A DNA stretch of 64,000 nucleotides, from assembly GCF_037893185.1 (NCBI RefSeq), contig NZ_CP140772.1, positions 1,302,001 to 1,366,000 of the forward strand, read 5' to 3'. The notes beneath the pieces were generated by a model. That model ran no database searches, had not been told where the DNA came from, and saw nothing but the letters and a program-made list of their open reading frames with translations. Shown here one piece after another: positions 32,971-56,537 of the stretch (position 1 is its first letter; the number at the start of each line of letters is the position of its first letter). This stretch comes from Chitinophaga sp. 180180018-3. Its GTDB lineage: Bacteria > Bacteroidota > Bacteroidia > Chitinophagales > Chitinophagaceae. The translations under genes and the position numbers were made by a program.

Positions 32971-32998
32971 TCTTACACCTAACAGTTCTGGTGTAAGA
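32971..32998. promoter_or_regulatory. Palindrome TCTTACACC-N10-GGTGTAAGA upstream of the tra operon
   Basis: Nine-base perfect arms with a 10-base spacer, immediately after rteC. The same 28-base element with the same spacing occurs at 56510-56537. The right arm ends 20 bases before a CATATTTG -7-like box (33019-33026), so it occupies the -33 area, as expected for an activator site. No T run follows, so it is not a terminator. Candidate RteC operator. Confidence 0.65.
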
Positions 32999-33018
32999 AA
33001 CCCCCTCTCCGGCACCCC

Positions 33019-33026
33019 CATATTTG
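33019..33026 (+). promoter_or_regulatory. Candidate -7 box CATATTTG of the tra operon
   Basis: Matches the Bacteroidetes TAnnTTTG -7 pattern at seven of eight positions, 34 bases before the ATG at 33061. No separate -33 TTG box is visible; the palindrome arm lies there instead, suggesting an activator-dependent promoter. Confidence 0.45.
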
Positions 33027-33060
33027 TGATGTAATCAGACAAAACATTGTTACATCAAAT

Positions 33061-33558
33061 ATGATCGTTATGCTGGAAAATATTTCATGGTCCCAATTCA
33101 TACTTTTTACAGGAGCTGCCCTAGCCGTTTATTATGTATTGCTCGTTGTAGTGTTTGGCAAGAAAGCGGGGAAGGGCAATTCATCGGCCGGGCAGCTTCC
33201 TGTTCTATCGACCCGCAAACGTGTATGGCAACCACTCGACAATCCTGAACCCGCTGCCGAACCCTTACCGGTAGAGCAACCCACCGTCCAAACAAAGCAG
33301 GTCATTTCCGCAGAGGATGAACTCTTTGACCTGTTGGAACAATTGGCCGATGAAATTCAGGATAAGGTGAGCCAGGCCAACCGCAACGACTGGCACGCAC
33401 TGCGACCGCAGTTACAACAATTGGTAGCCAGTTATCCTGCGTTACACGGGGAACCGTATCGCAAAGCCATTATCACCCACACAGAAAAGTGTGTCAAAGA
33501 CTATCTCGACATGGAATTGCCTGCCGATACCCTCACGGCTGTATGGCAGCAAGACTGA
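33061..33558 (+). CDS. Tra operon leader protein with N-terminal membrane anchor
   Basis: A 165-residue protein. Residues about 10-33 form one membrane segment (FILFTGAALAVYYVLLVVVF). A Pro-rich linker follows, then a helical cytoplasmic domain (ELFDLLEQLADEIQDKVSQA). It is the first gene after the tra promoter region and is followed by TraE. In similar Bacteroidetes elements a small membrane protein occupies this place, but I cannot name the family with certainty. Confidence 0.65.
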   Translation: MIVMLENISWSQFILFTGAALAVYYVLLVVVFGKKAGKGNSSAGQLPVLSTRKRVWQPLDNPEPAAEPLPVEQPTVQTKQVISAEDELFDLLEQLADEIQDKVSQANRNDWHALRPQLQQLVASYPALHGEPYRKAIITHTEKCVKDYLDMELPADTLTAVWQQD

Positions 33559-33605
33559 TACCGCTAGATCCCCATTGAAATTCTGAAAATTAAAAATAGT
33601 GTAGA

Positions 33606-33962
33606 ATGAAAAGTGATGTTGGAAAATTTTTGAGAAGGAAAAACTTCTCCAGGGAGAATATTGCCCTAACTGTTCTGGTGATGGCTCTTTTAGTGAATTG
33701 TGCTGATGTGTATGCACAAGCCGGTGGAAACGGAAACGCGGGGATCACCGCCGCTGAAACACAGGTAAAAGGGTATTTCAGCACCGCCGTCAATTTGGTG
33801 TATGCGATAGGCGCTATTGTTGGCCTGGTGGGGGCCGTCAAAGTGTTCAACAAATGGAATTCCGGCGACCAGGATACCGGAAAAGTAGCGAGTGCCTGGT
33901 TCGGGTCCTGCATTTTCCTGGTTGTGGTAGCAACGGTGCTGAAAGGATTTTTTGGCGTGTAA
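33606..33962 (+). CDS. traE: Conjugative transposon protein TraE (DUF4134)
   Basis: A 118-residue membrane protein with a signal-like N-terminal segment (ENIALTVLVMALLVNCADVY) and two further hydrophobic segments (VYAIGAIVGLVGAVKVF and CIFLVVVATVLKGFFGV). The KVFNKWNSGD linker and overall length match TraE/DUF4134, the small VirB2-like subunit of Bacteroidetes type IV secretion. It begins a tra gene run; an unrelated small gene separates it from TraF. Confidence 0.85.
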   Translation: MKSDVGKFLRRKNFSRENIALTVLVMALLVNCADVYAQAGGNGNAGITAAETQVKGYFSTAVNLVYAIGAIVGLVGAVKVFNKWNSGDQDTGKVASAWFGSCIFLVVVATVLKGFFGV

Positions 33963-33993
33963 CCGCCACCGTTACTATCACCGATCGTAAAAT

Positions 33994-34449
33994 GTGCGTA
34001 TGCAAAACGAACGAACAATTCCGGTAGTGCATATTGAGCAAGGAAGTTTTAAAGCAACGTTTGCCGTTGATATACCAAACAACCAGATAAAAAATGTAGC
34101 GCCTCCTTTTAACACCATAGCGTTTACGCAAATGGACTATGCAATGAATTATGAGGACTATATTTTTTTGATCGACAAACAAACCGGTGAGCAATTTCAT
34201 CCGCCAAAAGGCAGTCATTGTCTGCCAGATCAGGTGATCGCTGTAAAAATTCCAAATGAGCGTGTACTCGATCCCGAAGGTATGAAGCTCCATCACAACA
34301 GTTGGCCGGATTGGTTAAGCGAATATCAACAACGCGGCGAGCATAAAGCTGTAATTGTTCCGGTAGCTAAATTAGGTTATAAGCGTTTCAAACCGCGAAA
34401 CATCCGGCTACCGACAAAGAATACTGGTAACGTGAAAAAGAAAACGTGA
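33994..34449 (+). CDS. Hypothetical protein inserted between traE and traF
   Basis: A 151-residue soluble protein with no signal peptide or membrane segment (NERTIPVVHIEQGSFKATF; basic tail NTGNVKKKT). Its stop overlaps the traF ATG at 34449, so it is part of the operon. Bacteroidetes elements usually have traE and traF adjacent, so this looks like an insertion of an accessory gene. Function unknown. Confidence 0.6.
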   Translation: MRMQNERTIPVVHIEQGSFKATFAVDIPNNQIKNVAPPFNTIAFTQMDYAMNYEDYIFLIDKQTGEQFHPPKGSHCLPDQVIAVKIPNERVLDPEGMKLHHNSWPDWLSEYQQRGEHKAVIVPVAKLGYKRFKPRNIRLPTKNTGNVKKKT

Positions 34450-34775
34450 TGACGGGAGTGTTTACCATCAACAAAGGCATCAACAAAGCATTAGAATTCA
34501 AGGGCATCAAGGCGCAGTACCTTGCCTACCTCCTGATTGGGTTAATCAGCTTGTTGATTGTTTTTGCGGTGTGCTATATGGCAGGAGTGCCGACGTATGT
34601 GTTAATTCCGGGTGTGTTGCTGTTGGGTATTGTGCTTTTCTCATGGGTATCCCGGTTTTCACATAAATACGGCCAGCATGGGCTGATGAAGCTAGCTGGC
34701 TACCGCCAGGTTACTCCTGCCATTACATGCCGAACTAGAAAAATGTTCTTTGAAATACTGAAAAATAGGAAGTGA
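34449..34775 (+). CDS. traF: Conjugative transposon protein TraF (DUF4133)
   Basis: A 108-residue protein starting at ATG 34449 (a GTG at 34446 is in frame). It shows the TraF/DUF4133 features: INKGINKALEFKGIKAQYLA followed by two membrane segments (LLIGLISLLIVFAVCYMAGV and VLIPGVLLLGIVLFSWV). It is the VirB3-like inner-membrane component, always next to the TraG ATPase. Its stop overlaps the traG ATG at 34775. Confidence 0.85.
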   Translation: MTGVFTINKGINKALEFKGIKAQYLAYLLIGLISLLIVFAVCYMAGVPTYVLIPGVLLLGIVLFSWVSRFSHKYGQHGLMKLAGYRQVTPAITCRTRKMFFEILKNRK

Positions 34776-37288
34776 TGATTGTAGTTGTAGCGTGTGCGTT
34801 AGTGGCGCTTGCCGCCCTTATTTTGCATTTAAAAGAAGAGAAATCAAAAACGCTGGCACTTGAAAAAGTGCTGCCGGTATATAAAGTGGAAAGTGACCTT
34901 ATACTTTCCAAACATGGTGATGTAACCTGTGCCTATAAACTTGACCTGCCGGAGATCTTCACCCTCTCCAATTCCGAGTATGATACCATTCACCAGATTT
35001 GGTTAAAAGCGATGAAGGTACTTCCGGCAGGCACTATTATTCATAAACAAGATTGGTTTTGCAAGCAGGCATACCAACCACCCCAGGATCAGCCTTCCCA
35101 AACTTTTCTGGCGCAAAAAAGCAATGCGTATTTCACGGGAAGGCCCTTCCTGGCTCATTCCTGCTACCTGATGCTAACCCGCAAAGCCGCCAACCGCAAG
35201 CCGGCCAGCTCCGTGTTTTCCAACCTACTGCGCCCTTTGCTGCATGCGCAACCTGCGAACCTCAAAGCACTGGGCGATTTTGTAGATAAGGCAGGCCAAT
35301 TTCAAAAGTTACTTTCGGAAGGCGGCTTTATAAAAGTCGAACGCATGAAAGATGATGCACTCGCGGGTACAGAAGCTAGTCCTGGTTTACTGGAAAGGTA
35401 TTGCTTTTTGCTTTCTGAAACCGAAGAACCCATGATCCGTGATATTGGTTTTAAACCTGAATGGAAAATCGGTGACCGCTATTGTAATATGTATGCGTTG
35501 AGCGACGTGGAAGACATGCCTGCCGTGTGCGGCAGCAAAATGGTGTATGATAAGTATTCAACCGACAAGACACGCTTTCCTATTGGATTTGCGGCACCCA
35601 TCGGCCAGTTGCTTACCTGCGACCATATATACAACCAGGTAATCATTATCGAGGATACGCAAAAAACGATAAAATTGCTGGAGAGCAAAAGACGCCGCCT
35701 GCAATCATTAGCCGCTTACAGCCGGGAAAATACCTACAGCATGGAAGCCACCAATGCCTTTCTCAATGAAGCAGTCAGCGAACAACGCCAGCCAGTAAAA
35801 GCGCATTTTAATTTAATTGTTTGGACAGAGGACAGGGAACAGTTGGGCGAGCTGCGTAACCAGGTATCTGCTGCCATCGCACAGATGGATGGTACACCCA
35901 GGCAGGAAGTTCATGGAGCCCCACAGGTTTTTTGGGCTTGCCTGCCGGGCAACGCAGCAGACTGCCCCGTGAATGATACCTTCGATACGTTTGCCGAGCA
36001 GGCCATTTGCTTCCTGAATATGGAAACTGCTTACCGTTCTGCTTCCCCCCAAGACGGCATCCGTTTTTCAGACAGGCTTTCCGGTCGTCCCGTATTTGTA
36101 GACCTATACAACGGGCCGCGTAAAGCCGGGATCACCAGCAACATGGGAACGCTTGTATGTGGTACCAGCGGAGGCGGTAAAAGCATGACGGTAAACCACA
36201 TTCTTCGTACCCTGTTCGACCAGGGCGCACATTGCGTAACCGTGGACATTGGCGGAAGCTATAAGGGTTTGTGTGAACTTTTGAAGGGCTATTATTTTAC
36301 TTACGAAGAAAGCAACCCGATAAAGTTCAACCCCTTTTATCTTTCCGAGGGAGCTACCCTGGACACCGAGAAAAAAGAAAGCCTTAAAAGCCTGCTGGTA
36401 GCGCTTTGGAAACAGGACAATGAAAACTTTAACCGCAGTGAATATGTAGCGTTGTCCAATGCCTTGCAAGGCTATTACCTGCACCTTGAAAAGTTCCCTG
36501 AAATATTCCCCTGCTTTAACAGCTTTTATGAATACCTGGAAACCATTTACACCCAGGAGCTGAAAGCCTTCAATGTTAAGGACCGCGATTTTGACGTCAA
36601 CAATTTCCTGTATGTTCTGCGGCCATTTTACAAGGGTGGGGAATTTGACTACCTATTGAATGCCACAGAAAAGCTCGATGCGTTCAACCAGCCCTTCGTT
36701 GTATTTGAGCTGGACAATGTGAAAGATCATCCTATACTTTTCCCGGTCATTACATTAATAATCATGGAATTGTTTATTAGTAAAATGCGTAAACTAAAAG
36801 GTGTACGCAAGGTGCTAACCATCGATGAAGCCTGGAAAGCCATCGCCAAATCAGGTATGGCAGAGTTCTTAAAATATGCGTTTAAAACCATCCGTAAGTT
36901 TAACGGTGTTCCAATTGTGATTACGCAAGAATTAGATGACTTGATAAGTTCACCCATTATCAAAGACGCCATCATCAACAACGCCGACATTAAAATCTTG
37001 ATGGACATGCGCAAGTTTGTAAACAAATTTGACAAGCTGCAAGACGTACTGGGCATGAGTGAAAAAGGAAAAAACATTCTACTGTCCGTTAATAAAGATA
37101 ACCGGGAAATATTTATCGACATTGGCGGGCAAATTATGAAAGTGTATAAAAATGAATTGTGTCCGGAAGAATATTTCTCCTATACGACCGAAGGCAGGGA
37201 ACGTGTTATGGTACTGGATTATGCGGAACGGATGGGTAGCATGGAAGCGGGCATTGAACAATTGATAAAAGACAGGAAAAGCGCGTAA
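34775..37288 (+). CDS. traG: Conjugation ATPase TraG (VirB4-like)
   Basis: An 837-residue ATPase from ATG 34775, overlapping the traF stop. The N-terminal third has one hydrophobic segment and the TraG N-terminal domain. Walker A is CGTSGGGKSMT at about residues 462-472 and Walker B VLTIDEAWKAI is near 682. Other VirB4 marks include VVFELDNVKDHP and PIVITQELDDL. It powers assembly of the type IV channel. Length and gene position are typical of Bacteroidetes TraG. Confidence 0.95.
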   Translation: MIVVVACALVALAALILHLKEEKSKTLALEKVLPVYKVESDLILSKHGDVTCAYKLDLPEIFTLSNSEYDTIHQIWLKAMKVLPAGTIIHKQDWFCKQAYQPPQDQPSQTFLAQKSNAYFTGRPFLAHSCYLMLTRKAANRKPASSVFSNLLRPLLHAQPANLKALGDFVDKAGQFQKLLSEGGFIKVERMKDDALAGTEASPGLLERYCFLLSETEEPMIRDIGFKPEWKIGDRYCNMYALSDVEDMPAVCGSKMVYDKYSTDKTRFPIGFAAPIGQLLTCDHIYNQVIIIEDTQKTIKLLESKRRRLQSLAAYSRENTYSMEATNAFLNEAVSEQRQPVKAHFNLIVWTEDREQLGELRNQVSAAIAQMDGTPRQEVHGAPQVFWACLPGNAADCPVNDTFDTFAEQAICFLNMETAYRSASPQDGIRFSDRLSGRPVFVDLYNGPRKAGITSNMGTLVCGTSGGGKSMTVNHILRTLFDQGAHCVTVDIGGSYKGLCELLKGYYFTYEESNPIKFNPFYLSEGATLDTEKKESLKSLLVALWKQDNENFNRSEYVALSNALQGYYLHLEKFPEIFPCFNSFYEYLETIYTQELKAFNVKDRDFDVNNFLYVLRPFYKGGEFDYLLNATEKLDAFNQPFVVFELDNVKDHPILFPVITLIIMELFISKMRKLKGVRKVLTIDEAWKAIAKSGMAEFLKYAFKTIRKFNGVPIVITQELDDLISSPIIKDAIINNADIKILMDMRKFVNKFDKLQDVLGMSEKGKNILLSVNKDNREIFIDIGGQIMKVYKNELCPEEYFSYTTEGRERVMVLDYAERMGSMEAGIEQLIKDRKSA

Positions 37289-37333
37289 AAAATCGGGCGA
37301 TTTTCGTTAAATTCAGGGATAAACAATTATACT

Positions 37334-37732
37334 ATGAAGAAATCATTTTTAGCTATTGTTTTTGTTGCCACATGTACCGTCACTTTTTTTGGATGCGCCG
37401 GTAAAGGAGATCTGAAAGCCATCGAAGGTGAATATGTCCGTTACAACAAAACGGAACGGTCGGTCGTAAAAGATCAGTATTTTATTAAGCTGTTTAATGA
37501 AGAAACAGGACAGGTCAGCATTCAAAAGATTGCCAACATTACAAGAATTGTAGACGGTCAAATGCAAACGCCTTATGTCACGACGGATAAGTTTACGGGC
37601 TTTTATTTTCCCAACGAAAACAAATTAACGATAGCAGAGCGTGGACTGGACTTCAAGGTGGATTTAAAGGATAGCACCCTGTCCGTACCCAATGAAGTGT
37701 TTAAAAAAGTAAGCACCGCCACCGCTCCCTAA
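37334..37732 (+). CDS. Small lipoprotein in the tra operon
   Basis: A 132-residue lipoprotein with signal peptide and lipobox (TCTVTFFGCAGKGD). The mature part is beta-rich (GEYVRYNKTERSVVKDQYFI), with no recognised family. It sits between the VirB4-like TraG and the TraI-like genes. A surface or periplasmic lipoprotein here could take part in pilus assembly or in entry exclusion; both are guesses from position. Confidence 0.6.
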   Translation: MKKSFLAIVFVATCTVTFFGCAGKGDLKAIEGEYVRYNKTERSVVKDQYFIKLFNEETGQVSIQKIANITRIVDGQMQTPYVTTDKFTGFYFPNENKLTIAERGLDFKVDLKDSTLSVPNEVFKKVSTATAP

Positions 37733-37940
37733 AGTGATCTGCTTGCCCCAACCCATGTACGCATGTAGAATGCCCCTATAGGTATCCTGCATGCGTGCAT
37801 GGATCAAGCGATACCTTTCTGTTTTGTTAACCACCTCCTCTAAGCCCACACTACATCAATTTCCCCCTTCTTATTTTTTAGTATTTGACCGCACTGCGGC
37901 CAACAAGGTACCTATTGTGTCAAATGAAAATGTGTGCGAA

Positions 37941-38612
37941 ATGAAAAAGTGTATCTGGTTATCCGTGATTGTCTGCCTGTTTACTATCATGCCCACGAAA
38001 CGCAGCCATGCTATTGTTTGGGTAGTAGTAAAAGCCGCAGCAAAGAAAATTATCAAGGCCATTGACTTACAGGTGCAACGCTTGCAAAACAAAACCATCG
38101 GCTTACAAAACGCGCAGCGTGCCGTTGAAAATACGCTGTCCAAACTCAAACTCAATGAAATCGGGGATTGGATGGACAAGCAACGCGAGCAATATGCAAA
38201 GTATTACGATGAACTGCAAAAAGTGCGCAATACGATTGCCTATTACCGGCGCGTGAAAGCAATCATCCAGCGACAGATCGACCTGGTAGATGAATACAAA
38301 CGCGCTTATGCACTGTTTAAGCGTGACAAGAATTTCACCCCGCAAGAGATCGAGCAAATGGGCTTTATCTACCAGGGCATTTTTGATGAAAGCATGAAGA
38401 ACATCGATGAACTGTTGCTCGTAGTAAATGCGCTGTCCACCAGAATGTCAGATGCCAAACGCCTGGAACTAATTTCCGCAGCAGGCGAACGTGTTGATCG
38501 CAATTTTAGCCACCTGCTGGAATTCAACCGCAATAACGCTTTATTAAGCATGCAACGGGCAAAAGATCAAACAGAAGTAATGGGATTAAAAGCCCTGTAC
38601 GGAATAAAATAG
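37941..38612 (+). CDS. TraI-like exported protein, first of three paralogues
   Basis: A 223-residue protein from ATG 37941, where a signal peptide begins (MKKCIWLSVIVCLFTIMPTK); the longer frame to 37791 lacks sense. It is almost all helix, with coiled-coil character (LQNAQRAVENTLSKLKLNEI) and the motif RMSDAKRLELI. It resembles the VirB5-like TraI of Bacteroidetes elements, thought to sit at the pilus or in the periplasm. Two relatives follow directly. Confidence 0.75.
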   Translation: MKKCIWLSVIVCLFTIMPTKRSHAIVWVVVKAAAKKIIKAIDLQVQRLQNKTIGLQNAQRAVENTLSKLKLNEIGDWMDKQREQYAKYYDELQKVRNTIAYYRRVKAIIQRQIDLVDEYKRAYALFKRDKNFTPQEIEQMGFIYQGIFDESMKNIDELLLVVNALSTRMSDAKRLELISAAGERVDRNFSHLLEFNRNNALLSMQRAKDQTEVMGLKALYGIK

Positions 38613-38618
38613 TGTAGT

Positions 38619-39266
38619 ATGAAAATGTGTGTATTATTTCTGATCGCCCTTTGCATGGCTACGGCATCGTATGCCCAGGGCGTAGATGAATGGTTACGGC
38701 AAAAGGCCACGCAACGCAAATATCTTATCCAGCAAATTGTTGCCTTGCAGGCGCAGATTGCCCAAATAAAAAAAGGATATGAGATTGCGAAACAAGGTTA
38801 CAATACCATCCATGCCATTAAGAACGGTGAATTCTCCCTTCACACCGCTTTTTTTACTGGACTGAAAACTGTCAATCCGAAAGTGAAAAAATATGCACGG
38901 GTGGCCGATATTATTGCCAACCAGGTCACCATTGTGCAGGTAGCCCATCAAAGTATCCGCCAGGCCAGAAGCAGCCCCCGTTTCGCCAGCGGAGAACTGG
39001 CAGCAGTATCTGAAATCACTGATGCCTTACTTAGTGAAGTGGCTAAAACCATCGATCAGTTATCCGCTGTTGTACTCAACGGTAAGTATGAAATGAGCGA
39101 TGACGAACGCCTGCGGCGCATTGACAATTTATACCTCACCAGTACACAGCAGGCAAAAACAGCCTACACACTTTCCCAACACGTCGGATTCATTGACCGC
39201 AGCCGTTTGCAGGAACTTTCCGAGAACCGCGCTATGCGGGAACTCTACAACCTTCCTGCGCAGTAA
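38619..39266 (+). CDS. TraI-like exported protein, second paralogue
   Basis: A 215-residue exported helical protein (signal MKMCVLFLIALCMATASYAQ). It contains GEFSLHTAFFTGLKTVNPKV and EMSDDERLRRIDNLY, both aligning with the third paralogue (GNYKLHQAFLDGL, RMSDEERLSAIDRIY). It starts 6 bases after the preceding stop. VirB5-like role inferred from position and helical build. Confidence 0.72.
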   Translation: MKMCVLFLIALCMATASYAQGVDEWLRQKATQRKYLIQQIVALQAQIAQIKKGYEIAKQGYNTIHAIKNGEFSLHTAFFTGLKTVNPKVKKYARVADIIANQVTIVQVAHQSIRQARSSPRFASGELAAVSEITDALLSEVAKTIDQLSAVVLNGKYEMSDDERLRRIDNLYLTSTQQAKTAYTLSQHVGFIDRSRLQELSENRAMRELYNLPAQ

Positions 39267-39287
39267 ATAAATTTTAATCAGGAAAAA

Positions 39288-39932
39288 ATGATTTCCATGA
39301 AACGCATATGTAGTGTAATGCTTTTGTTGCTGGTGGCATCCTTTCCCTATCGTGCCAACGCACAAGCGGCAGAACTGGCGCAACTGGCGCTCAATATCGA
39401 AAAGCTCACGCAGTTTAAACAGATCCTGGAGCAGATGTATAAGGGATATAAAGTACTTACCGAAGGATACAACAAGGTCAAAGACGTTGCCTCTGGTAAT
39501 TACAAACTGCACCAGGCATTTCTTGATGGCCTTTACCTGGTATCCCCGGAAGTGCGCAAGTACCAACGCATACCGGATATTGTAAATTATCAAATCGACA
39601 TTCTGAACGAATACAAAGCTGCTTTTCGTCACTTCAAAAATTCCGGTGCTTTTACCGAAAGTAACCTCGCTTATCTGGAAGCAGTGTATAACAACCTGTT
39701 CCAGCGAAGTCTTGCCAACCTGGAAGAATTAACAATGGTCATCACTACCAACCAGCTACGCATGTCCGATGAAGAACGCCTAAGCGCCATAGACCGGATT
39801 TACAAAGAAATGAAGGAGAAAAGAACCTTCCTGCGGCAATTCAATGAAGAAGCGAAAATGCTTTATCTGCAAAAGCGCAAGGAGAAAGTGGAAGTTGATA
39901 ACCTCAACGGCCTTTACAATTTTAAAAATTAA
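39288..39932 (+). CDS. TraI-like exported protein, third paralogue
   Basis: A 214-residue exported helical protein (signal LLLLVASFPYRANAQ). Its first half matches the second paralogue and its second half matches both relatives (LRMSDEERLSAIDRIYKEMK). Tandem triplication of a VirB5-like gene is a feature of this operon. It ends 14 bases before traJ. Confidence 0.72.
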   Translation: MISMKRICSVMLLLLVASFPYRANAQAAELAQLALNIEKLTQFKQILEQMYKGYKVLTEGYNKVKDVASGNYKLHQAFLDGLYLVSPEVRKYQRIPDIVNYQIDILNEYKAAFRHFKNSGAFTESNLAYLEAVYNNLFQRSLANLEELTMVITTNQLRMSDEERLSAIDRIYKEMKEKRTFLRQFNEEAKMLYLQKRKEKVEVDNLNGLYNFKN

Positions 39933-39946
39933 TTCAATCGTAGGGT

Positions 39947-41014
39947 ATGAAATATTGTGTGGGCGCCAGCTTATTGCTGCTGGCAGTGTGCTGTCCATTT
40001 CTTTCCCAGGCACAGGGAATGGCGGGTGATATTAAAAGTTTCCAGTCCGTCCTGGAAACACTGTACAAAGATATGCTGCCCAAAGTCGGCAGCCTGATAA
40101 ACGTAGGGCGCGCTGTCGCTGGGTTTGCGGCTATATGGTACATTGCTTACCGCGTATGGGGGCATATTGCCCGCGCCGAAAGCATTGACTTCTATCCGCT
40201 TTTTCGACCGTTCGCCCTCGGCCTTGCCATCACGCTGTTTCCCCAGGTACTAGCGGTTATCAACGGGGCTTTGAATCCCATTGTTACCGGCACTGCGCAA
40301 CTGGTGGATAATTCCGATAAAGCTATTGCCGAATTATTTAAAAAGAAGGAGGCGGAAATGCGTAAAAGTGACCAGTGGAAGGCACTCGTCGGTGAAAGCG
40401 GAACCGGTGACCGTTCACTCTGGATGGAGTATGCACACCCTGATGTGCAACAAGAAGGGTGGGTAGAAAAGATCGGTAACTCGATGGAATTTGTAATGGC
40501 AAAAATGGCCTACAACTTCACCAATGATATAAAGCGCATCATCAGTATCATCCTGCAAATTATCTATGCCGCTGCCGCCCTTTGTATAAATACGCTACGA
40601 ACGTTTAACCTGATAATTTTAGCCATGCTCGGCCCACTGGTGCTCGGCATCAGCGTATTTGATGGCTTCCAACACACGCTCAACATGTACCTGGCACGCT
40701 ACATCAATATCTACCTCTGGCTACCGGTTGCCAATATCCTGGGTGCTGTACTGGGCACCATTCAGGAAAACATACTAAAAATGGATTTGAAAAATCTCGC
40801 GGAAACCGGTACCACTTTTTTTAGCACCTACGACCTGGGGTATATCATATTCATGCTGATCGGCATCATTGCCTACACGACTGTACCCAGTATTGCCGAC
40901 CAGATCGTACATGTGGGAGGTGGTGGCGCCCTTCAACAGAAAGCCACCCAAACTTTTAGCGGTGTAGCTTTTGGCGCACCGACTGCGGTGGCAACTGGCA
41001 AGGTTTCTTTTTAA
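39947..41014 (+). CDS. traJ: Conjugative transposon protein TraJ (VirB6-like)
   Basis: A 355-residue polytopic inner-membrane protein with a cleavable signal (LLLLAVCCPFLSQAQ). Hydrophobic segments lie at about 45-65, 85-105, 195-215, 220-240 and 295-320. The blocks FDGFQHTLNMYLARYINIYL and LPVANILGAVLGTI are typical of Bacteroidetes TraJ. It forms the inner-membrane part of the DNA channel. Gene order with traK, traM and traN downstream is canonical. Confidence 0.88.
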   Translation: MKYCVGASLLLLAVCCPFLSQAQGMAGDIKSFQSVLETLYKDMLPKVGSLINVGRAVAGFAAIWYIAYRVWGHIARAESIDFYPLFRPFALGLAITLFPQVLAVINGALNPIVTGTAQLVDNSDKAIAELFKKKEAEMRKSDQWKALVGESGTGDRSLWMEYAHPDVQQEGWVEKIGNSMEFVMAKMAYNFTNDIKRIISIILQIIYAAAALCINTLRTFNLIILAMLGPLVLGISVFDGFQHTLNMYLARYINIYLWLPVANILGAVLGTIQENILKMDLKNLAETGTTFFSTYDLGYIIFMLIGIIAYTTVPSIADQIVHVGGGGALQQKATQTFSGVAFGAPTAVATGKVSF

Positions 41015-41052
41015 CATGAAAATTATTGTGTGACCGATAAAGTGAAGAAGAT

Positions 41053-48911: not shown

Positions 48912-48967
48912 CAGATCCGGGGGCGCCCCGGCGCCCTCTCATTTTCTCACACTAAATAATGTAAACC

Positions 48968-49198: not shown

Positions 49199-49210
49199 AC
49201 CACTAACACC

Positions 49211-49519: not shown

Positions 49520-49529
49520 TCCACCCGCT

Positions 49530-49739
49530 ATGCAGAAAAACAAACAAGTCAAGCACACCCACGGGATGGAATGGTTCCGCTTCACCCTCCGCCACGACCG
49601 CGGCACGACCCGCCTAACCATCGGCCCATCTTCGGGCCTGATGGCGGCCATTGCACAACTGCTTTGCCTCGAAGGCTGCCCGCTTTGCGCCATTGAGCGC
49701 ATCCGCCAAGTTCGCTCACCTAAAAAAAGGAAATGGTAA
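49530..49739 (+). CDS. Small hypothetical protein
   Basis: A 69-residue protein (MQKNKQVKHTHGMEWFRFTL; basic end RSPKKRKW). It begins 10 bases after the J-domain gene on the same strand. The GC-rich antisense frame is not credible. Function unknown; basic ends suggest nucleic acid contact. Confidence 0.5.
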   Translation: MQKNKQVKHTHGMEWFRFTLRHDRGTTRLTIGPSSGLMAAIAQLLCLEGCPLCAIERIRQVRSPKKRKW

Positions 49740-49785
49740 CACTTAAAGCGGCCGCGCCTCCGCCGCCTACTGGCGCACTTCTTCC

Positions 49786-49995
49786 ATGCAAACATATCAT
49801 TTTCAAATAATCGTACTCGGTTACCGGACGCCCTCGGCCTTTATCCCTGCGTATTCCCGGCGCTTTAAAAGTCGCAAAAAAGCCGAAGCGCTCGCCCTTC
49901 GCACCGCGTGCTTTTACAAAGCAGAGGTAAGGCTAACGACCGGCAAACAGCCGAGCAGCGGCACTTCCCATTATTTCCGCCATCCCAATTTTTAA
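49786..49995 (+). CDS. Small hypothetical protein
   Basis: A 69-residue basic protein (YSRRFKSRKKAEALALRTAC). It ends 17 bases before the DUF3560 gene. A different frame starting at 49908 overlaps it, but that frame is the upstream extension of DUF3560 and not needed. Function unknown. Confidence 0.5.
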   Translation: MQTYHFQIIVLGYRTPSAFIPAYSRRFKSRKKAEALALRTACFYKAEVRLTTGKQPSSGTSHYFRHPNF

Positions 49996-50012
49996 AACAA
50001 AAACATACATAT

Positions 50013-50795
50013 ATGAAACACAATTATCACGAAAGAAAACAACGGCGCATAGACTACGCCAGAGAGCAAGCCGCCAAAAGCGAACAGGAATCTACCCGCC
50101 GTTACAATACGGCTGATGAAATCAGTAGTTTCATTCCTCCCGGTCAGCCGATACTGGTAGGCCATCACTCCGAAAAGCGCCACCGCCGCGACCTGGAGAA
50201 GATCAACAACAACATGCGCAAAAGCATCGAAGCGACACAAAAAGCTGCCTACTATGAGGATAAAGCGGAATCCATCGAAAAAAATACCGCTATATCTTCC
50301 GACAACCCGGACGCGCTGGACCTGCTGAAAAATAAGTTAGAACGGCTTACCGCTATGCAGGAATTCATGAAGCTAACCAATAAGTATATTAAGAAAGGCG
50401 ATAAAGCTGCATTCCTGCAACTCCCCGGTGCCACAGAGGCCCTTTGGACAGAGCTTACCAGTGCCACCAGCCGGTGGGATATAGGCTATCCGCGCTACCG
50501 GTTAAGTAATAACAATGCCGTGATACGCACTACCAAACAGCGTATTGCCCAATTGGAAAAACTGGCAGCCCTCACCACGCAGGAATTTACTTTTAAGGGC
50601 GTGCGCATCGTGCAGAATGTAGAAGTCAACCGCCTGCAATTGATCTTTCCCGGCAAACCCGCCGAAGCGGTGCGCGAGGCGCTTCGCCATAGTGGCTTTA
50701 TATTTTGCCGGGAGGAAATGGCCTGGCAGCGCCAACTGAACAATGCCGGTTTTTATGCTGCCAAATCTTTTTTACGGGAATATAACCCCGAATAA
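50013..50795 (+). CDS. DUF3560 domain protein
   Basis: A 260-residue protein from ATG 50013; the frame extends to 49908, but the upstream part overlaps the previous gene. It has the DUF3560 core AAYYEDKAESIEKNTAISSD followed by DALDLLKNKLERLTAMQEFM and a C-terminal AWQRQLNNAGFYAAKSFL. DUF3560 proteins are frequent in conjugative elements and plasmids; the biochemical role is unknown. It is followed by a strong hairpin at 50799-50830. Confidence 0.85.
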   Translation: MKHNYHERKQRRIDYAREQAAKSEQESTRRYNTADEISSFIPPGQPILVGHHSEKRHRRDLEKINNNMRKSIEATQKAAYYEDKAESIEKNTAISSDNPDALDLLKNKLERLTAMQEFMKLTNKYIKKGDKAAFLQLPGATEALWTELTSATSRWDIGYPRYRLSNNNAVIRTTKQRIAQLEKLAALTTQEFTFKGVRIVQNVEVNRLQLIFPGKPAEAVREALRHSGFIFCREEMAWQRQLNNAGFYAAKSFLREYNPE

Positions 50796-50798
50796 TCC

Positions 50799-50830
50799 AA
50801 CAGCGGGCGCCGCTGCCGGTGCCCGCTGTT
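50799..50830 (+). terminator. Strong hairpin after the DUF3560 gene
   Basis: AACAGCGGGC at 50799-50808 pairs perfectly with GCCCGCTGTT at 50821-50830 over a 12-base loop. There is only a weak T-rich tail, so it may be an attenuator, a 3' stabilising hairpin or an inefficient terminator between two cotranscribed genes. Confidence 0.5.
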
Positions 50831-50853
50831 ATTCACCTTTAAACTACATCACT

Positions 50854-51396
50854 ATGTCAATTATACTGATCAGTTTAGCCTATTGGGAGAAAACCGTCTT
50901 ACAAAAACTGGCGCCCGGCTCTAAAATATTTTTGGTGGTGCCGGTTGAAATGATCCGATCCCATACCACGGCCCCCGCCGTTGAGTTCTTTAAAATCATC
51001 AGCACCGACCCTTTGCGCTTCCAGGCCACTGTAATGTGGACCTTTGAAGGCTATGACGATGATCCCCGCGAGGTCTGCGATATTCCCGAAGTGCGGCGCT
51101 TTGTGCAATCGGTGGTGCAGGCGTTCCCGGAAATGCTGTTTTTCATGAACCAGGATGAAATTACCGGCCTGCCGGATTTTGACCACCTGTTTATGCTGAT
51201 GGTGGACAGCAGCCCCGTGATGGATGCAGGACCCGCTGGCATGTACGCCATCGACCTGCTGGGAGTGCGGGAGTTCTGGCAAATGTCATTAAAAGCCATT
51301 GCCGCCATGCTGGACAAACAGCAGTTTTCTAAATCAAATATTTATCAATTATTGAGGGGCCTCCGGCAGCGTTACCACGCAACCTTCGGCCAGTGA
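50854..51396 (+). CDS. Hypothetical ICE protein
   Basis: A 180-residue soluble protein from ATG 50854, which follows the hairpin; the frame reaching 50743 would overlap DUF3560 and the hairpin. Features include SIILISLAYWEKTVLQKLAP at the start and a helical end. Not recognised. It ends at another hairpin (51410-51441). Confidence 0.6.
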   Translation: MSIILISLAYWEKTVLQKLAPGSKIFLVVPVEMIRSHTTAPAVEFFKIISTDPLRFQATVMWTFEGYDDDPREVCDIPEVRRFVQSVVQAFPEMLFFMNQDEITGLPDFDHLFMLMVDSSPVMDAGPAGMYAIDLLGVREFWQMSLKAIAAMLDKQQFSKSNIYQLLRGLRQRYHATFGQ

Positions 51397-51409
51397 TAAC
51401 AAAAATGGC

Positions 51410-51446
51410 GGCGCGCAGCAGATAATTTTCTGTTGCGCGCCTTATT
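51410..51446 (+). terminator. Terminator-like hairpin
   Basis: GGCGCGC at 51410-51416 with GCGCGCC at 51435-51441, extended inward by CAGA/TCTG pairs, then TTATTTA. It ends the 47.7-51.4 kb small-gene run. Confidence 0.65.
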
Positions 51447-51579
51447 TACGGGTTGCCGGACCGCTTGTTCTCTCTTGGAGACCACTATTTATATGGAACA
51501 GCTCTTATCTTTTGAGCAGCTTCTTTCTTGATAGTCCGTCAAGAAAGAAGCAAAGAAGCGGCTTTTGCTCGCTCTTTCA

Positions 51580-52058
51580 TCAATCACTCATTGCCCTGCG
51601 GCGCCACCTGCCAAAGTTCAGCAGGTCACGCCCTTCAACTTCCCACAGTACTGCACGAAGTACGACAACACTGCAAACAGAATCTATAAACAGGATGATC
51701 GCGAGCCACACCGGTATTTCAGCTCCTATTTTTATGTGTTCAACATCAAAATTGGTTTTGGTGGTCAACCAATACGGGAGCCCGGCCACGATCAACAGAT
51801 CCAGGAAATAACGAAGAGGTTTCGCCACTCGCAGCTTTATTTTCTGTTGCACCTGGTAAATGAACATACACAGAAGGTAAACACCCGCAATAAATAAGGG
51901 GTTCAAAAACAAAACACCACCGCCACCCTGGCGTCCACCATCAGTTTGAGTAAATAGGCAATATCCAGTGAACAAATCCATGTAACAATGTACACGGTGT
52001 GAAATACCCTTGAATAGTTCGGCTGTTCCACCTTATGCTGTTGATTGTCCATTCCCAT
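51580..52058 (-). pseudogene. Small membrane protein split by a one-base frameshift in a homopolymer
   Basis: An N-terminal frame starts at ATG 52058 (or 52052), five bases after the preceding stop. It reads MGMDNQQHKVEQPNYSRVF and then two hydrophobic segments, reaching VAVVFCF and a TGA at about 51905. The adjacent frame continues naturally from there: LNPLFIAGVYLLCMFIYQV, then LRYFLDLLIVAGLPYWL, to 51580. Joining them at the run of five A at 51905-51909 (plus strand) gives one protein of about 158 residues with roughly four membrane helices. One base lost from the run would explain it. Other explanations are programmed slippage, phase variation or sequencing error. Confidence 0.6.
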
Positions 52059-52060
52059 AT

Positions 52061-52486
52061 TTATACTGCCGTAGAGTTGAAATAAGGGCTTTTTTTGCTG
52101 TCAATTTGCACCAGTAAACGCAGGCCCCCGGACGCTATAGCAAGGACGATGAAAGCGGCTGTAAAGCCTTTCCAATCAATATTCCAGTGTAAAGGATTCA
52201 ATGAGTGATAATAAAAGCACATGGCGATGTAAACAGCTATAAATCCAATTATATGCCCTGCGACAATACGCCAGGCAAATGGCCGTTTTCTTTTGCTGTG
52301 ATGGTCTATTAGACGAACGACCCAAAACATGGCATATAATCCCAACAGCAGCCCAGCCTGGCCGAGCGTGAACAGGCAGTGTTCTTTGAGCGTAGGCCGG
52401 AAGTCGAACCACCATATCAAGCCGCAGTTTGCCGATTCCGCAAAGGCAATAATGAGCAAAATATTCAAGCACAACTGTTTTGTCAT
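52061..52486 (-). CDS. Small four-helix membrane protein
   Basis: A 141-residue protein with hydrophobic segments at about 6-24, 40-58, 72-92 and 105-122 (IIGFIAVYIAMCFYY; AFIVLAIASGGLRLLV). No known motif. It is directly upstream of, and practically overlaps, the frameshifted membrane protein gene, so both were one operon. A 52-kb-region promoter is not evident. Possibly an effector pair; function unknown. Confidence 0.65.
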   Translation of the reverse strand: MTKQLCLNILLIIAFAESANCGLIWWFDFRPTLKEHCLFTLGQAGLLLGLYAMFWVVRLIDHHSKRKRPFAWRIVAGHIIGFIAVYIAMCFYYHSLNPLHWNIDWKGFTAAFIVLAIASGGLRLLVQIDSKKSPYFNSTAV

Positions 52487-52669
52487 CTTTCAGATAATTA
52501 AGGGAGGTTACTATCTAAGAGAGCAATGGGGTATAAAATTGGGTGAATAATCAAATAAAAATACACACTGTAAATATAAAATGTTACAAGTGTGCAGAAA
52601 TGCTTACTTTTCCATTTTCATAGGATAAGGTTTCGGTAAGGAACTGATTAGTAGGCCCTGTAAGGGGCC

Positions 52670-54229
52670 TTATTTTTTACCATACTTACGGAATGCCGCT
52701 ACAAATTGGAAAATAAAAAAACCTACCACCAATTTGCCAAAAAAATCTACTGCCAGGGTGAAATGACCAAATTCCCCTTTTGTTACCAGGAAGTCATTTC
52801 GGTGTGTTAAGTCGATAAAAGCAAAATAGTAGCCGATAAGCGACGGATCAAAATCAGCCTGGCAATTGAAGATCCGCCCCAAAGTCACCAGATACAGGAT
52901 ATAAACAATCCCGGAACTGATCCAAAAACCCCAAAAGGCTCTTTTAAGTGATATACCGTGATTGTTGGAAACCTTGTTAATGCAGAGTATTACATTATCC
53001 CACCAGGATAAACGTTTGATCTCCCGCAGGGCATCGTTGGAAACAGCATGCAATTTCAGGGATTCCTGAAAATTGCCCGTCCCTTCCAATGCTTTGCGCA
53101 ATTGTAGGAAAATCTCGTACATATCCATGTGGTAGTTGTCTTTCTTCTTGTGGGGATAGTGAATGTTTTCTACCGAACGGAAATTGTCGAACTGCCTGTA
53201 GTCATCCGGGAAATTGCAGGCCGAAAAAATAGTTTTGGAAAAGCGTGTACGGAAAAGAGAAACGCTACTGTAAGCAGCAAAATCAAAATTATCAAACCAA
53301 GCATTATCCAACGTACACTGGTGTATCTCTACCTTTGATACGTCATCCGGTTTTCCCGCCGCATCAGGGCCGGCCAAAACGTCAGCAGGTACTCGTTTTT
53401 GCTGCGTACTGATGTAGTAAAAAACCAATTCCCCTTTAGGTACCAATTTGCGCAGGTATAATCGGTCGATGGTGCATTCTTCCACATTTATTTTACCGCT
53501 GGCCGTTCCTTGCAGTGAGAGGGTACGCAGGTAAATGTTTTTTACTTCTGTTACCTTCGCCTTATCCGTACCACTGTACTTAATATCCAGATTCAGGCTC
53601 ATGCTGGCTTTTTCACCAGCGGTTAGCCTGTAACGGTAACGTGAATCCCTTATTTTGTCCAGTTTCGTTTTATAGATTCCTGGCTTACCGGTAGCGTCAT
53701 GCTGCGCTACAACGTGTAGATTCTCAATATCCTCCACATAGTATGCTATCTTTCGCTCTAATAGCCTATTGAACTGGTCCTTATTTCCCAATTTGCGAAG
53801 CAAGGCCCGCCAGCGCAATGGATAAATAGTCGATTCGGTGTATTCAATGCGCACCAGATCGGTGTTTTTGATGAAAAAACCATCGCTAATGCAATTTACC
53901 AGTTGAACGCTTTTCAGTTCTCCTTCCCGCATCACACCGCTGTCGATAATAGTATTATGAAAATAAACGCCCAGGTTTTTACCTACTGCGGATCGCACTT
54001 CCAGCCGTTCGATGAAGCAGTCAAGAAAAGTAAGGTCTATCAGGTCATATGCCAGGGGCTGATCGTAAATAATGGTCACCTTCTTAAACAGGCAGCGTTC
54101 CAGGAAAAGCATGGACTTACCAGGTAATGCGGTCACATGTTGAAACATGGCCGTGGTGAGCTCAATTTCAATGTCACCAAACGCTTTGTCAGCTATTGGC
54201 TGATAAGGGGTAATAGGTAGTACAGCCAT
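52670..54229 (-). CDS. Pentapeptide-like beta-helix protein with C-terminal channel-like membrane segments
   Basis: A 519-residue protein. Residues about 20-130 and 210-340 have repeated short strands of the pentapeptide/beta-helix type (LFLERCLFKKVTIIYDQPL; VSLFRTRFSKTIFSACNF). The last 110 residues hold two membrane segments (GFWISSGIVYILYLVTLG; LVVGFFIFQFVAAFRK) with a loop between (YYFAFIDLTHRNDFL). That TM-loop-TM layout recalls two-helix ion channels, but no potassium filter motif is present. Neighbours are a GIY-YIG protein and an XRE regulator in the same direction. A membrane effector in phage defence is an inference. Confidence 0.6.
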   Translation of the reverse strand: MAVLPITPYQPIADKAFGDIEIELTTAMFQHVTALPGKSMLFLERCLFKKVTIIYDQPLAYDLIDLTFLDCFIERLEVRSAVGKNLGVYFHNTIIDSGVMREGELKSVQLVNCISDGFFIKNTDLVRIEYTESTIYPLRWRALLRKLGNKDQFNRLLERKIAYYVEDIENLHVVAQHDATGKPGIYKTKLDKIRDSRYRYRLTAGEKASMSLNLDIKYSGTDKAKVTEVKNIYLRTLSLQGTASGKINVEECTIDRLYLRKLVPKGELVFYYISTQQKRVPADVLAGPDAAGKPDDVSKVEIHQCTLDNAWFDNFDFAAYSSVSLFRTRFSKTIFSACNFPDDYRQFDNFRSVENIHYPHKKKDNYHMDMYEIFLQLRKALEGTGNFQESLKLHAVSNDALREIKRLSWWDNVILCINKVSNNHGISLKRAFWGFWISSGIVYILYLVTLGRIFNCQADFDPSLIGYYFAFIDLTHRNDFLVTKGEFGHFTLAVDFFGKLVVGFFIFQFVAAFRKYGKK

Positions 54230-54257
54230 AAGGAACTAAATTTCATGGTGGTAAAAG

Positions 54258-54638
54258 TCAATCGAGCACTGTATGTAATCCCACGTGCAACGGGCATAAC
54301 ATGCCACAGGCAAGGGCTTCGAGCAGTACCCGTTCACGGGCATTTGCCACAGGAAGAAACTGGAAGCTGAAACCTGTTCTCACCGTTAGATGTTTTGGTT
54401 GAAGATAATTACGTACAAAGGAAGATTGCCCGTAAATATGGTTGTTTAACCGCTGGCAAAGCCCGTCTTTTCCTGTACGGGTATTGCCAACATGCGCAAC
54501 AATGTTATCCTGATAAATAATATATACGCCCTTTAGACCCGTGATATTTAACCCGCCCCGCTCCGGGAACGGGTGGAGTGGCTCGTTTACCAGCGCGTCA
54601 AAAAGCTGTCTTATCCGTAGGGTTTCTTCGCTGTTCAT
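54258..54638 (-). CDS. GIY-YIG-like nuclease domain protein
   Basis: A 126-residue protein with the GIY-YIG fold pattern: GVYIIYQDNIVAHVGNT (the GVY...HVG strands), then GLCQRLNNHIYGQSSF, and a late Glu in RERVLLEALA. The YIG-equivalent is HVG, and the usual catalytic Arg position is Arg/Gln-rich. It may be an active small nuclease or a degenerate DNA-binding form. It lies between the XRE regulator and the pentapeptide-like protein on the same strand. Confidence 0.65.
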   Translation of the reverse strand: MNSEETLRIRQLFDALVNEPLHPFPERGGLNITGLKGVYIIYQDNIVAHVGNTRTGKDGLCQRLNNHIYGQSSFVRNYLQPKHLTVRTGFSFQFLPVANARERVLLEALACGMLCPLHVGLHTVLD

Positions 54639-54648
54639 GTATAAGGGT

Positions 54649-55077
54649 TTATTGGCCCAGTGCCTTTTTTAAGCGGTCGATTTCGGCTTTGTATTCCGCC
54701 CGCTCTTTTTCCCAAAACTCCAGCAACTTATCCAAAGGCATTACATAGGTTTGCTGATTATGAATATGCGTTGCAAATTGTTGATGGGAATGATCGTGGT
54801 TGGTAAACGTATTATTAAAAACCTGAATGGCAGAATCCAGATCCAGGTGTTTAAGAACTTCCGGCGTTACTTTAAGAATTTCAGCAATATGTTGCAATAG
54901 TTCTTCATCTGCTATTTCCGGGCGATCCTCTAAATCGCTAATGAACTGCTGGCTCACCGGGTGGCCGCTTTTTTCTTCCAGCATATGGGCAAGTCCTGCC
55001 TGGGAATAATCCCACAGCAGCCGGAACCTTCTGATATTCAAGCCCACATGGGCGGTGGGTTTGGAGCTATTTACCAT
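54649..55077 (-). CDS. XRE-family regulator with coiled-coil tail
   Basis: A 142-residue protein with a Cro/C1-type HTH at about 10-70 (IRRFRLLWDYSQAGLAHMLE; VSQQFISDLEDRP) and a C-terminal coiled coil (WEKERAEYKAEIDRLKKAL), likely for dimerisation. It is divergent from the gene at 55237; between them are nested inverted repeats. It starts 11 bases upstream of the GIY-YIG gene's region and probably regulates that operon. Confidence 0.85.
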   Translation of the reverse strand: MVNSSKPTAHVGLNIRRFRLLWDYSQAGLAHMLEEKSGHPVSQQFISDLEDRPEIADEELLQHIAEILKVTPEVLKHLDLDSAIQVFNNTFTNHDHSHQQFATHIHNQQTYVMPLDKLLEFWEKERAEYKAEIDRLKKALGQ

Positions 55078-55129
55078 AAAGCGTTAATTCTGTGTATTCA
55101 CAAATATATAAAATCCTGAACGTAAGATG

Positions 55130-55191
55130 ACAAGTTGCCGTAAAGTACGGCTGTCGGCGGTAGGTTACGGCATTAATGGGTGCTAACTTGT
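55130..55191. repeat. Nested inverted repeats between divergent genes
   Basis: ACAAGTT (55130-55136) pairs with AACTTGT (55185-55191). Inside, GCCGTA (55137-55142) and TACGGC (55146-55151) form a tight palindrome with a 3-base centre, and TTACGGC recurs at 55165-55171. These are candidate operator sites for the XRE regulator at 54649-55077, located between divergent genes. Confidence 0.45.
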
Positions 55192-55236
55192 AAACAGATG
55201 ATGAAACCAATTTAGTAACCCGACAACTATCCTGTA

Positions 55237-55842
55237 ATGAAAAAACATGACTACCTGGATACCTCGTTGTGGTATAAGGAAAAAATCAAAGATCCCTTTC
55301 AGGTGATTGCCGAAGCCTTTAGCTTCGCCGAAATCTCCTTTTACCGCAAACTCATTACGCGGGTATTGCATGCCGCCAGTTCCGAAAAAGTGTATAGCAA
55401 ATGTTCTCCCTCCAACCTGCTGTTTGAAATGAAAATGCTGGAATCGGTCATCAATGCTGCTTACCTGATTTACAAAGAGAGGCGAAAAAGCCCTTTGCTT
55501 ATTTCCAGCGCAGATTTACAGAACAGGAACCTTTATTACACGGGACGCCCTGGCACCGAATACGATGATATGCCAAAGTCCCTTTCCCAAAAAGAGTTCA
55601 TGAACCCTTACCTGGTATTTAAACGCTCTTTTAAACGCCTTCCACTTGATAAGTTGAAAGGGCAGATTGAAGAAATAGTAGAGTACTCGCTTTCTGCTCA
55701 CGCCTATGACGATATTGAAATAGACTGTTTATCCCTATACCTGCAACTTAACAAGATCGTAGAAGCCGCCCATCTTATTGATGTTCGTGAGATCATCCAT
55801 GTTGACGGCCACCTGAAAAACAGGCTCAAAACCACGTATTAA
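55237..55842 (+). CDS. Hypothetical protein, first of a two-gene unit
   Basis: A 201-residue, mostly helical protein (IAEAFSFAEISFYRKLITRV; IEEIVEYSLSAHAYDDIEID). The four-helix character and the adjacent nucleotidyltransferase-like gene suggest a HEPN-type partner. The HEPN catalytic Rx4-6H motif is not clearly present, however, so the assignment is left open. No signal peptide. It precedes the next gene by 10 bases. Confidence 0.6.
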   Translation: MKKHDYLDTSLWYKEKIKDPFQVIAEAFSFAEISFYRKLITRVLHAASSEKVYSKCSPSNLLFEMKMLESVINAAYLIYKERRKSPLLISSADLQNRNLYYTGRPGTEYDDMPKSLSQKEFMNPYLVFKRSFKRLPLDKLKGQIEEIVEYSLSAHAYDDIEIDCLSLYLQLNKIVEAAHLIDVREIIHVDGHLKNRLKTTY

Positions 55843-55852
55843 ATTATCTTAC

Positions 55853-56470
55853 ATGAAAACACGTAAATCCATCAGCCACCTCACGGGCAATGAACAGACC
55901 ACCCTGCATGAAATAAAAAAGCAAGTGGTGAAAATGGTACAACCGCTGATTATCTACTGTTACGGCAGTGAGTTGAACACCACCATCAGGCGAAGCTGTT
56001 TTACTACGCCTGTACGGGAAGAGAGCTGGCAATTTAGTTGTGACCTCCTGGTTGTAGTTCCCGACAATCACGAACTTCCGGCTACCATTGCCACCGAAAT
56101 TGCCGAGGCAACCGCACAATGGGGCCGGGTCACCGTTCGGGTTCATACCCATGAAGTCGTATCACGGCATCTGCACAATGAAAATCTATTTTTTTCATGG
56201 GTGCATAAATTTGCGATGCTACTCTATGAGCAAAATGGCGCCACTGCAAAATTGCCGCCGCCAATCAATAAGCGAGCGGAATATCAGCAGCAGGCTTTCC
56301 AGTTTTATACAGCCAATCCTGAAATGCCTTCTTACCTTACGGAGAAACTGGTAACTATCGTTCAGGAAATTCCCGTCCAGTCTACAAGAACCGAGCAAAA
56401 GCCCATTGAACTTAGGTTATTTCTTTATTTAAAAGACGGAAAACTCGAACAGGCAACGACCGGCAGTTAA
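55853..56470 (+). CDS. Nucleotidyltransferase-like protein (degenerate MNT)
   Basis: A 205-residue protein with a pattern like minimal nucleotidyltransferases: IIYCYGSELNTT near residue 37 (Gly-Ser) and CDLLVVVPDN near 62, where Asp-x-Leu-Val normally gives the metal-binding carboxylates. The spacing is longer than usual and the second catalytic Asp is not clear. Paired with the helical gene upstream, it could form a HEPN/MNT-type toxin-antitoxin or defence pair; this is an inference. Confidence 0.5.
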   Translation: MKTRKSISHLTGNEQTTLHEIKKQVVKMVQPLIIYCYGSELNTTIRRSCFTTPVREESWQFSCDLLVVVPDNHELPATIATEIAEATAQWGRVTVRVHTHEVVSRHLHNENLFFSWVHKFAMLLYEQNGATAKLPPPINKRAEYQQQAFQFYTANPEMPSYLTEKLVTIVQEIPVQSTRTEQKPIELRLFLYLKDGKLEQATTGS

Positions 56471-56509
56471 AAAACATTCTGCAACATCCATCCGAAAACG
56501 TCCGTTTTT

Positions 56510-56537
56510 TCTTACACCTGTATGTGGTGGTGTAAGA
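56510..56537. promoter_or_regulatory. Palindrome TCTTACACC-N10-GGTGTAAGA upstream of the excisionase-like gene
   Basis: The same nine-base arms and 10-base spacing as at 32971-32998. It ends 40 bases before ATG 56577, and 18 bases before a CCATTTTG sequence (56556-56563) whose TTTG could serve as part of a -7 box. Candidate RteC-type operator controlling excision. Confidence 0.65.

Follow-up and report, generated by a model that had tools for sequence, protein, structure and literature searches.

How does a mobile element bring its excision and its conjugative transfer under common control? The question is raised by an integrative and conjugative element (ICE) of Chitinophaga sp. 180180018-3, which carries a gene for a regulator of the RteC family, known to our knowledge mainly from CTnDOT. 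We analyzed a stretch of 64,000 nucleotides from the 8.13-Mb host genome (contig NZ_CP140772.1; G000:C1:1302001-1366000), hereafter called the window, whose coordinates are used unless stated otherwise. An earlier note on this DNA had pointed out that one palindrome precedes both the transfer (tra) operon and an excisionase-like gene, and had proposed that the RteC encoded beside the first copy couples excision with transfer. We therefore asked where the palindrome occurs, whether it is conserved, and which protein is likely to read it.

Three Copies of a Palindrome in the Element

The palindrome TCTTACACC-N10-GGTGTAAGA occurs in exact form at 32971-32998 (site 1; half-sites 32971-32979 and 32990-32998) and at 56510-56537 (site 2), both on the + strand, with identical arms and spacing and with differing spacers, as the earlier note had described. 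No other copy with up to three mismatches is present within the window, and 100 shuffles gave a mean of 0.01 copies and at most 1, so that the two exact sites are not explained by chance. The arm TCTTACACC is found four times in the window, where 0.37 would be expected, and always inside one of the two palindromes. A scan of the whole genome at up to two mismatches returned three places, namely these two and a third, TTTTAAACC-N10-GGTGTAAGA (site 3), which has two mismatches, both in one arm, and lies at G000:C1:1299758-1299785, 2.2 kb left of the window (window positions -2242 to -2215). At that threshold there is no further copy at unrelated genes; two more places appear at three mismatches.

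Each site heads a rightward operon. Site 1 starts at 32971, two bases after the end of rteC (32124-32969, + strand), and is followed 20 nt later by CATATTTG (33019-33026, + strand), the -7-like box of the tra promoter; the earlier note had both distances right. Site 2 has its last base at 56537, with 39 bases separating it from the ATG (56577) of xis83 (56577-56828, + strand), an 83-aa excisionase candidate in a small operon linked to the integrase, and site 3 heads the mob operon. A single putative operator shared by the excision, transfer, and mob operons is thereby well supported. The description of xis83 as excisionase-like stands in part: of 29 loci with a homologue of it, 19 also have an integrase homologous to that of this ICE at a distance of ~1.5 kb or less, which supports an excisionase candidate by linkage to the integrase only, but no Pfam or NCBIfam model scores above cut-off for the protein, and its structure model is too weak for use (pLDDT 62).

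Conservation of the Sites in Related Elements

Two sister ICEs, one in Chitinophaga sp. Ak27 (rteC 80% identical) and one in a metagenome-assembled genome (MAG; rteC 88%), carry all three sites at homologous places with zero to two mismatches, amounting to 9 of 9 sites in 3 of 3 ICEs. Site 1 has two mismatches in both sisters, while site 2 has one in Ak27 and is exact in the MAG; the palindrome is thus kept beside both rteC and xis83 in these relatives. When genome contigs totaling 257 billion bases were searched for the exact 18-base palindrome, seven stretches were found. Three of the seven are from Chitinophaga, each homologous to site 2 or site 3. For the remaining four, and likewise for four matches from viral contigs, the stretches examined encode none of 13 ICE proteins. 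Across 79 genomes of the genus, seven other matches at up to two mismatches all fall in stop-free frames of 294-677 codons, and we take them as chance.

More distant members may exist. Relatives of RteC (72 and 54%) and of xis83 (78 and 84%) lie on contigs of equal size, 67,089 and 123,278 bases, so that two more ICEs may belong with this kind, equal size being the only sign that each contig is shared. An RteC relative at 65% was sought among 396 genomes of the order, which returned only the present one, and among viral contigs, which returned none. The 60 kb covered of the Ak27 element (L072-L074) contain no homologue of this ICE's integrase among frames of at least 90 aa and lack most of the 177-aa gene that follows xis83; the element may no longer be mobile, though its three sites remain. 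A 173-aa gene beside site 3 was considered as a possible regulator and appears unlikely, since the Ak27 element retains the site but has no homologue of the gene.

Directly before site 2, the sequence CCGAAAACGTCCGTTTTT (56492-56509) is present in all three ICEs; the gene that precedes it in this ICE has no homologue in Ak27.

Position of the Sites Relative to the Promoters

Counted from the last base of the palindrome, a downstream TTTG ends at a nearly constant distance, namely 28, 28, and 27 nt at site 1 (this ICE, Ak27, and the MAG, respectively), 26 nt in all three at site 2, and 27 nt in all three at site 3. In the xis promoter the -7-like box is CCATTTTG (56556-56563, + strand), 18 nt after site 2. 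With a spacing picked after the sites had been seen, GGTGTAA-N24-26-TTTG matches only the nine sites on both strands of 110 kb around this ICE, 60 kb of Ak27, and 65 kb of the MAG; widened to N22-28, it gives 12 matches, the nine sites and three further ones. The half next to the promoter, GGTGTAAG, is the same in 9 of 9 sites and the distal half varies, with none of the nine base pairs changed on both sides in any of the sites. An invariant proximal half together with uncompensated distal changes fits a protein on DNA and not an RNA stem.

Sites 1 and 3 have CATATTTG, CATCTTTG or CACCTTTG as box and site 2 has CCATTTTG, all similar to the -7 box of Bacteroidota -7/-33 promoters, for which the portion of PMC7366714 available to us gives the consensus TAnnTTTG (-7) and TTTG. 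Unlike such promoters, the three examined here show no -33 TTG by eye. As the same portion reports that Flavobacterium johnsoniae did not show a -33 motif, a missing -33 TTG is weak evidence when taken alone.

Further repeats lie near these promoters. A second inverted repeat, CATATTTGTGATGTAA...TTACATCAAATATG, spans 33019-33065, starting at the -7 box and reaching the first tra start codon; it is recognizable in all three ICEs with an inner-arm gap of 15, 16, or 18 nt as judged by eye, and might act in the 5′ leader. The pattern TGRTGTAA-N15-TTACAYCA was considered as a second operator of sites 1 and 3 and dropped, because the gap at site 1 varies in this way across the three ICEs and because G015, a distant ICE described below, keeps the TTACACC beside the -7 box of site 3 although its operator word has changed. 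TTGTTACACCAYCTTTG after site 3 (L011:17296-17312; genome 1299796-1299812) is kept in four ICEs including G015; since the word of G015 differs, the TTACACC within it appears to be tied to the promoter or to a different factor.

Operator Geometry Downstream of Distant rteC Genes

We compared 149 rteC loci with DNA (60 of them fetched), a subset of all rteC matches, which gave 128 nonredundant loci and, after removal of one locus of this ICE's own family, 127 rteC-downstream sequences. An operator geometry, defined as 7-nt arms with at least six of seven positions paired, a gap of 12, and a TTTG ending 27-29 nt later, was matched in 14 of the 127 (dinucleotide shuffles: mean 0.95, maximum 2). The TTTG offset peaks at 28, with nine sequences, and offsets of 20-27 and 29-39 give zero to three. 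Several of the sequences carry an operator of three half-sites, rcH-N1-H-N4-H, with a TTTG ending 28 nt further on; the word H changes from ICE to ICE. At the threshold set and at lag 11, this form is present in 13 of the 127 sequences, compared with 0-4 at other lags and a mean of 1.1 (maximum 2) in dinucleotide shuffles. Of the 13 loci with this lag in the comparison of 128, 11 have the TTTG in place, L187 and L227 being without it. The palindrome of the present ICE corresponds to the outer two half-sites of the triad, with arm centers 19 bp apart in both, and its sites, read with 7-nt arms, stand 27-29 nt from the end of TTTG. The geometry is thus shared after rteC in some distant ICEs.

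Seventeen loci, chosen by score and by eye, were inspected individually. The distance from operator to TTTG end is 28 in 13 of them, 27 in L157, and 29 in L199, while L015 lacks a TTTG at the proper position and L182, measured from only part of its operator, gives 22. Eight loci from other genera (L156, L157, L034, L035, L158, L172, L225, and L243) share with this ICE the arm spacing after rteC and a TTTG that ends 28 nt on (27 in L157); unlike this ICE, they have three intact half-sites and other words, and a clear second use at other operons did not turn up in the scan by word. An HTH_17 domain is expected of Xis2c-like genes, and among the 10 of 17 loci whose next gene was scanned, 8 encode HTH_17, L172 encodes DUF3853, and L157 gave none. 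By eye, the next gene in L199, L222, and L026 resembles the first tra gene of this ICE, and for L199 a tblastn comparison of the two gave 30% identity (E 4e-5).

Reuse of the Operator Word in Distant Elements

If each ICE has one reader, the word should change alike at all of its operators. We examined this in G015, whose RteC is 38% identical to the one here, and which was chosen since its site L199 resembled the one in this ICE and is not an unbiased draw. Its tra operator reads TATACAG-GTGTATA-TCTG-GTGTATA and its mob operator TGTACACC-N9-GGTGTACA, with TTTG ending 29 (tra) and 28 nt (mob) after the last 7-nt half-site and, in both, one base fewer between the outer half-sites than here. At mob and tra alike, and on either arm of the mob site, GTGTAYA takes the place of GTGTAAG, a parallel change of the kind that a single reader predicts. 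Within the 80 kb, a perfect TACACC-N7-13-GGTGTA followed by a correctly placed TTTG occurs at the mob site alone. The flank of this site, TTGTTACACCATCTTTG, is identical to that of site 3 here; with the G015 tra word as query, the site scores the same as one unrelated place. No xis83 homologue was found in the G015 80 kb. In 339 genomes GTTACACCAYCTTTG occurs at 22 places, and the palindrome accompanies it only in the present ICE and G015.

Other elements gave less. A palindrome recurring convincingly at several operons was found neither in six distant ICEs nor in three more; in the scan of the six, G360 and G083 gave three pairs each (shuffles 0-1), and the present ICE three pairs (shuffles 0 and 3). 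A word scan without shuffle control covered 13 distant ICEs, 5 of which belong to those six. It revealed second copies near rteC in G977 and G084, with all clear matches close to rteC, and weaker places away from rteC in G894 (41560), G926 (39538), and G084 (68861).

Proposed Direct Control by RteC and Its Alternatives

Judging from sequence, the palindrome is probably an RteC-type operator, such that RteC would bind it, activate the adjoining promoters, and switch mob, tra, and xis directly and jointly. Because the same operator stands before all three, we propose a one-step regulon. An RteC dimer would bind the two inverted half-sites, with arm centers 19 bp apart; the proximal half-site would lie over the -33 region, and RteC would recruit RNA polymerase to the TTTG-box promoter. 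A rise of RteC would then turn on DNA processing (mob), pore assembly (tra), and excision (xis) together. The coupling of excision and transfer proposed in the earlier note is partly supported: the shared operator, which extends to mob, and the geometry after distant rteC genes speak for it, but a search for a specificity code gave a negative result.

That search and several other observations weigh against direct control by RteC. The geometry is missing from 113 of the 127 rteC-downstream sequences, many of which, we suppose, have no ICE operon after rteC. It is present in 4 of 127 control sequences taken upstream of rteC, and 3 of 128 such controls pass the triad threshold when no TTTG is demanded. 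Gaps of 10 and 14 are also raised (11 and 9), in part because a shifted register picks up the same triads, and the middle half-site is degenerate in this ICE. Among the distant ICEs scanned, G015 alone gave a clear second use of the word at a distance from rteC. The C-terminal domain of RteC is more conserved than the N-terminal one in 16 of 16 aligned relatives, yet the word varies. Over 17 loci picked in the same way as the 17 inspected above and sharing 16 with them, the distance between words shows no significant correlation with the presumed recognition helix (240-249; Mantel r 0.12, p 0.23), and its correlation with the whole C domain (r 0.34, p 0.017) has an equal in the N domain (r 0.33, p 0.013). 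Once the helix is allowed for, the remaining C domain still correlates (r 0.38, p 0.004), and a specificity code may thus lie elsewhere than in the helix.

An unlikely but serious competitor is that another ICE protein reads the operator set, such as the MobA-like NikA/MobC_2 protein, xis83, or a small protein without a family, and that RteC acts elsewhere. The MobA-like protein (2201-2611) does match NikA-like and MobC_2 models, several small proteins common to the three ICEs belong to no family, and the presumed recognition helix of RteC does not track the word. Against this, distant ICEs have the same geometry directly behind rteC, and for 8 of the 13 that were scanned, the MobC, relaxase, TraG, TraJ, and TraE of this ICE were all undetected in the stretch examined.

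It is improbable that RteC or another protein uses the same operator to repress the three promoters until a signal arrives. A repressor on the proximal half-site, which reaches the -33 region, could block polymerase there; the promoters, however, show no -33 TTG by eye, as expected of activator-dependent promoters, and RteC of CTnDOT is described as an activator in the sections of PMC5729914 and PMC10865816 available to us. Still less credible is that the palindromes are RNA hairpins of a terminator or attenuator, chance occurrences, or duplicated DNA. Site 1 begins directly after the rteC stop, but no T run follows the stem, and its changes are uncompensated (0 of 9 pairs), so that a hairpin was rejected; chance is excluded by the 0.01 copies expected in shuffles, and since spacers and flanks differ between sites, there was no recent duplication of promoter DNA. 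A host global regulator, to which mobile elements can in general become subject, is the least probable reader, given that the genome holds just the three sites at up to two mismatches.

Beyond direct control by RteC in this ICE, it is conceivable, at somewhat less than even chances, that RteC ICEs of Bacteroidota share one operator grammar with differing words, which would give each element a private address as opposed to cross-switching among co-resident ICEs, and that a cascade has here turned into a one-step regulon. If a grammar with a variable word holds, RteC targets would be predictable from sequence in other ICEs, and a private regulatory address for each ICE would become testable. The present ICE would, if directly controlled in this way, trigger excision, DNA processing, and transfer from one switch.

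Genes and Ends of the Element

The RteC protein matches PF09357 (3e-59; 200.8 bits, cut-off 25.3) over model positions 1-219 of 219. A sequence search gave no solved relative (E up to 1), and its structure model (pLDDT 77) has no fold match in the PDB at E up to 0.001. Five further rteC genes lie in the genome (G000:C1 1877467, 3363707, 1905151, 3348294, and 3808369), making six in all; the inverted repeats listed for the 1.5 kb around each of these five do not include the palindrome. The gene before rteC (30703-32052) encodes a 449-aa protein present in this ICE and in the MAG, with no family above cut-off. In Ak27 a 722-aa protein takes this place, with a 102-aa frame between, and by eye resembles a hybrid kinase with a C-terminal HTH.

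The tra operon opens with a 165-aa gene (33061-33558, from the ORF list), a 30% homologue of which directly follows the G015 operator. Downstream, all on the + strand, are a TraE-like gene (DUF4134; 33606-33962; PF13572, 1.2e-35), the conjugation ATPase gene traG (34772-37288; TIGR03783, 914.8 bits, cut-off 261.55), and traJ (39947-41014; TIGR03782, 324.4 bits, cut-off 289.95). The rightward run after site 3 ends with genes, likewise on the + strand, for the MobA-like protein (2201-2611; PF21983, 9.5e-11), the relaxase (2596-4104; PF03432, 4.4e-24), and a MobC-type coupling protein (4131-6119; NF041326, 966.2 bits, cut-off 900).

The tyrosine integrase is encoded at 59518-60645 on the - strand (PF13102, 1.2e-14; PF00589, 2.4e-8). 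Between xis83 and the integrase lies a gene for a GmrSD-type restriction enzyme (57683-59422; PF03235, 4.4e-30), possibly defense cargo. Two more xis83 homologues exist in the genome, at G000:C1:1246088 (64%) and 1480977 (60%), and the former adjoins a 70% homologue of the integrase. Homology with the Ak27 element stops at 61022, within a tRNA-Leu (61005-61089, - strand; ARAGORN), and the right end of the ICE is likely the 3′ end of this tRNA; the left end was sought and not located.

Comparison with CTnDOT

Park and Salyers are said to have reported in 2011 that RteC binds inverted half-sites upstream of a -33 box. At site 2, inverted half-sites are found just upstream of the promoter of xis83, an excisionase candidate by integrase linkage only. 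According to the portions of the CTnDOT literature available to us, RteC activates excision functions (PMC10865816), including Xis2c, with activation of the transfer genes following (PMC5729914), the excisionases also act as transcription factors (PMC9956884), and RteC controls excision and transfer genes, with directness left unstated (PMC1976400). An operator grammar of the kind described here was not recognized in the titles and opening lines of abstracts of the open-access papers that our searches returned. The likeness to CTnDOT on which the earlier note drew is incomplete: it covers excision, which RteC activates there (PMC5729914), and less clearly transfer, which follows excision functions in that source and is controlled by RteC, directly or not, in another (PMC1976400). 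In both systems an RteC-family regulator would have an excision gene as its target. Unlike in CTnDOT, where transfer genes follow excision functions, the putative operator of the present ICE stands directly before mob and tra as well, an arrangement that would point away from a CTnDOT-type cascade via excision proteins.

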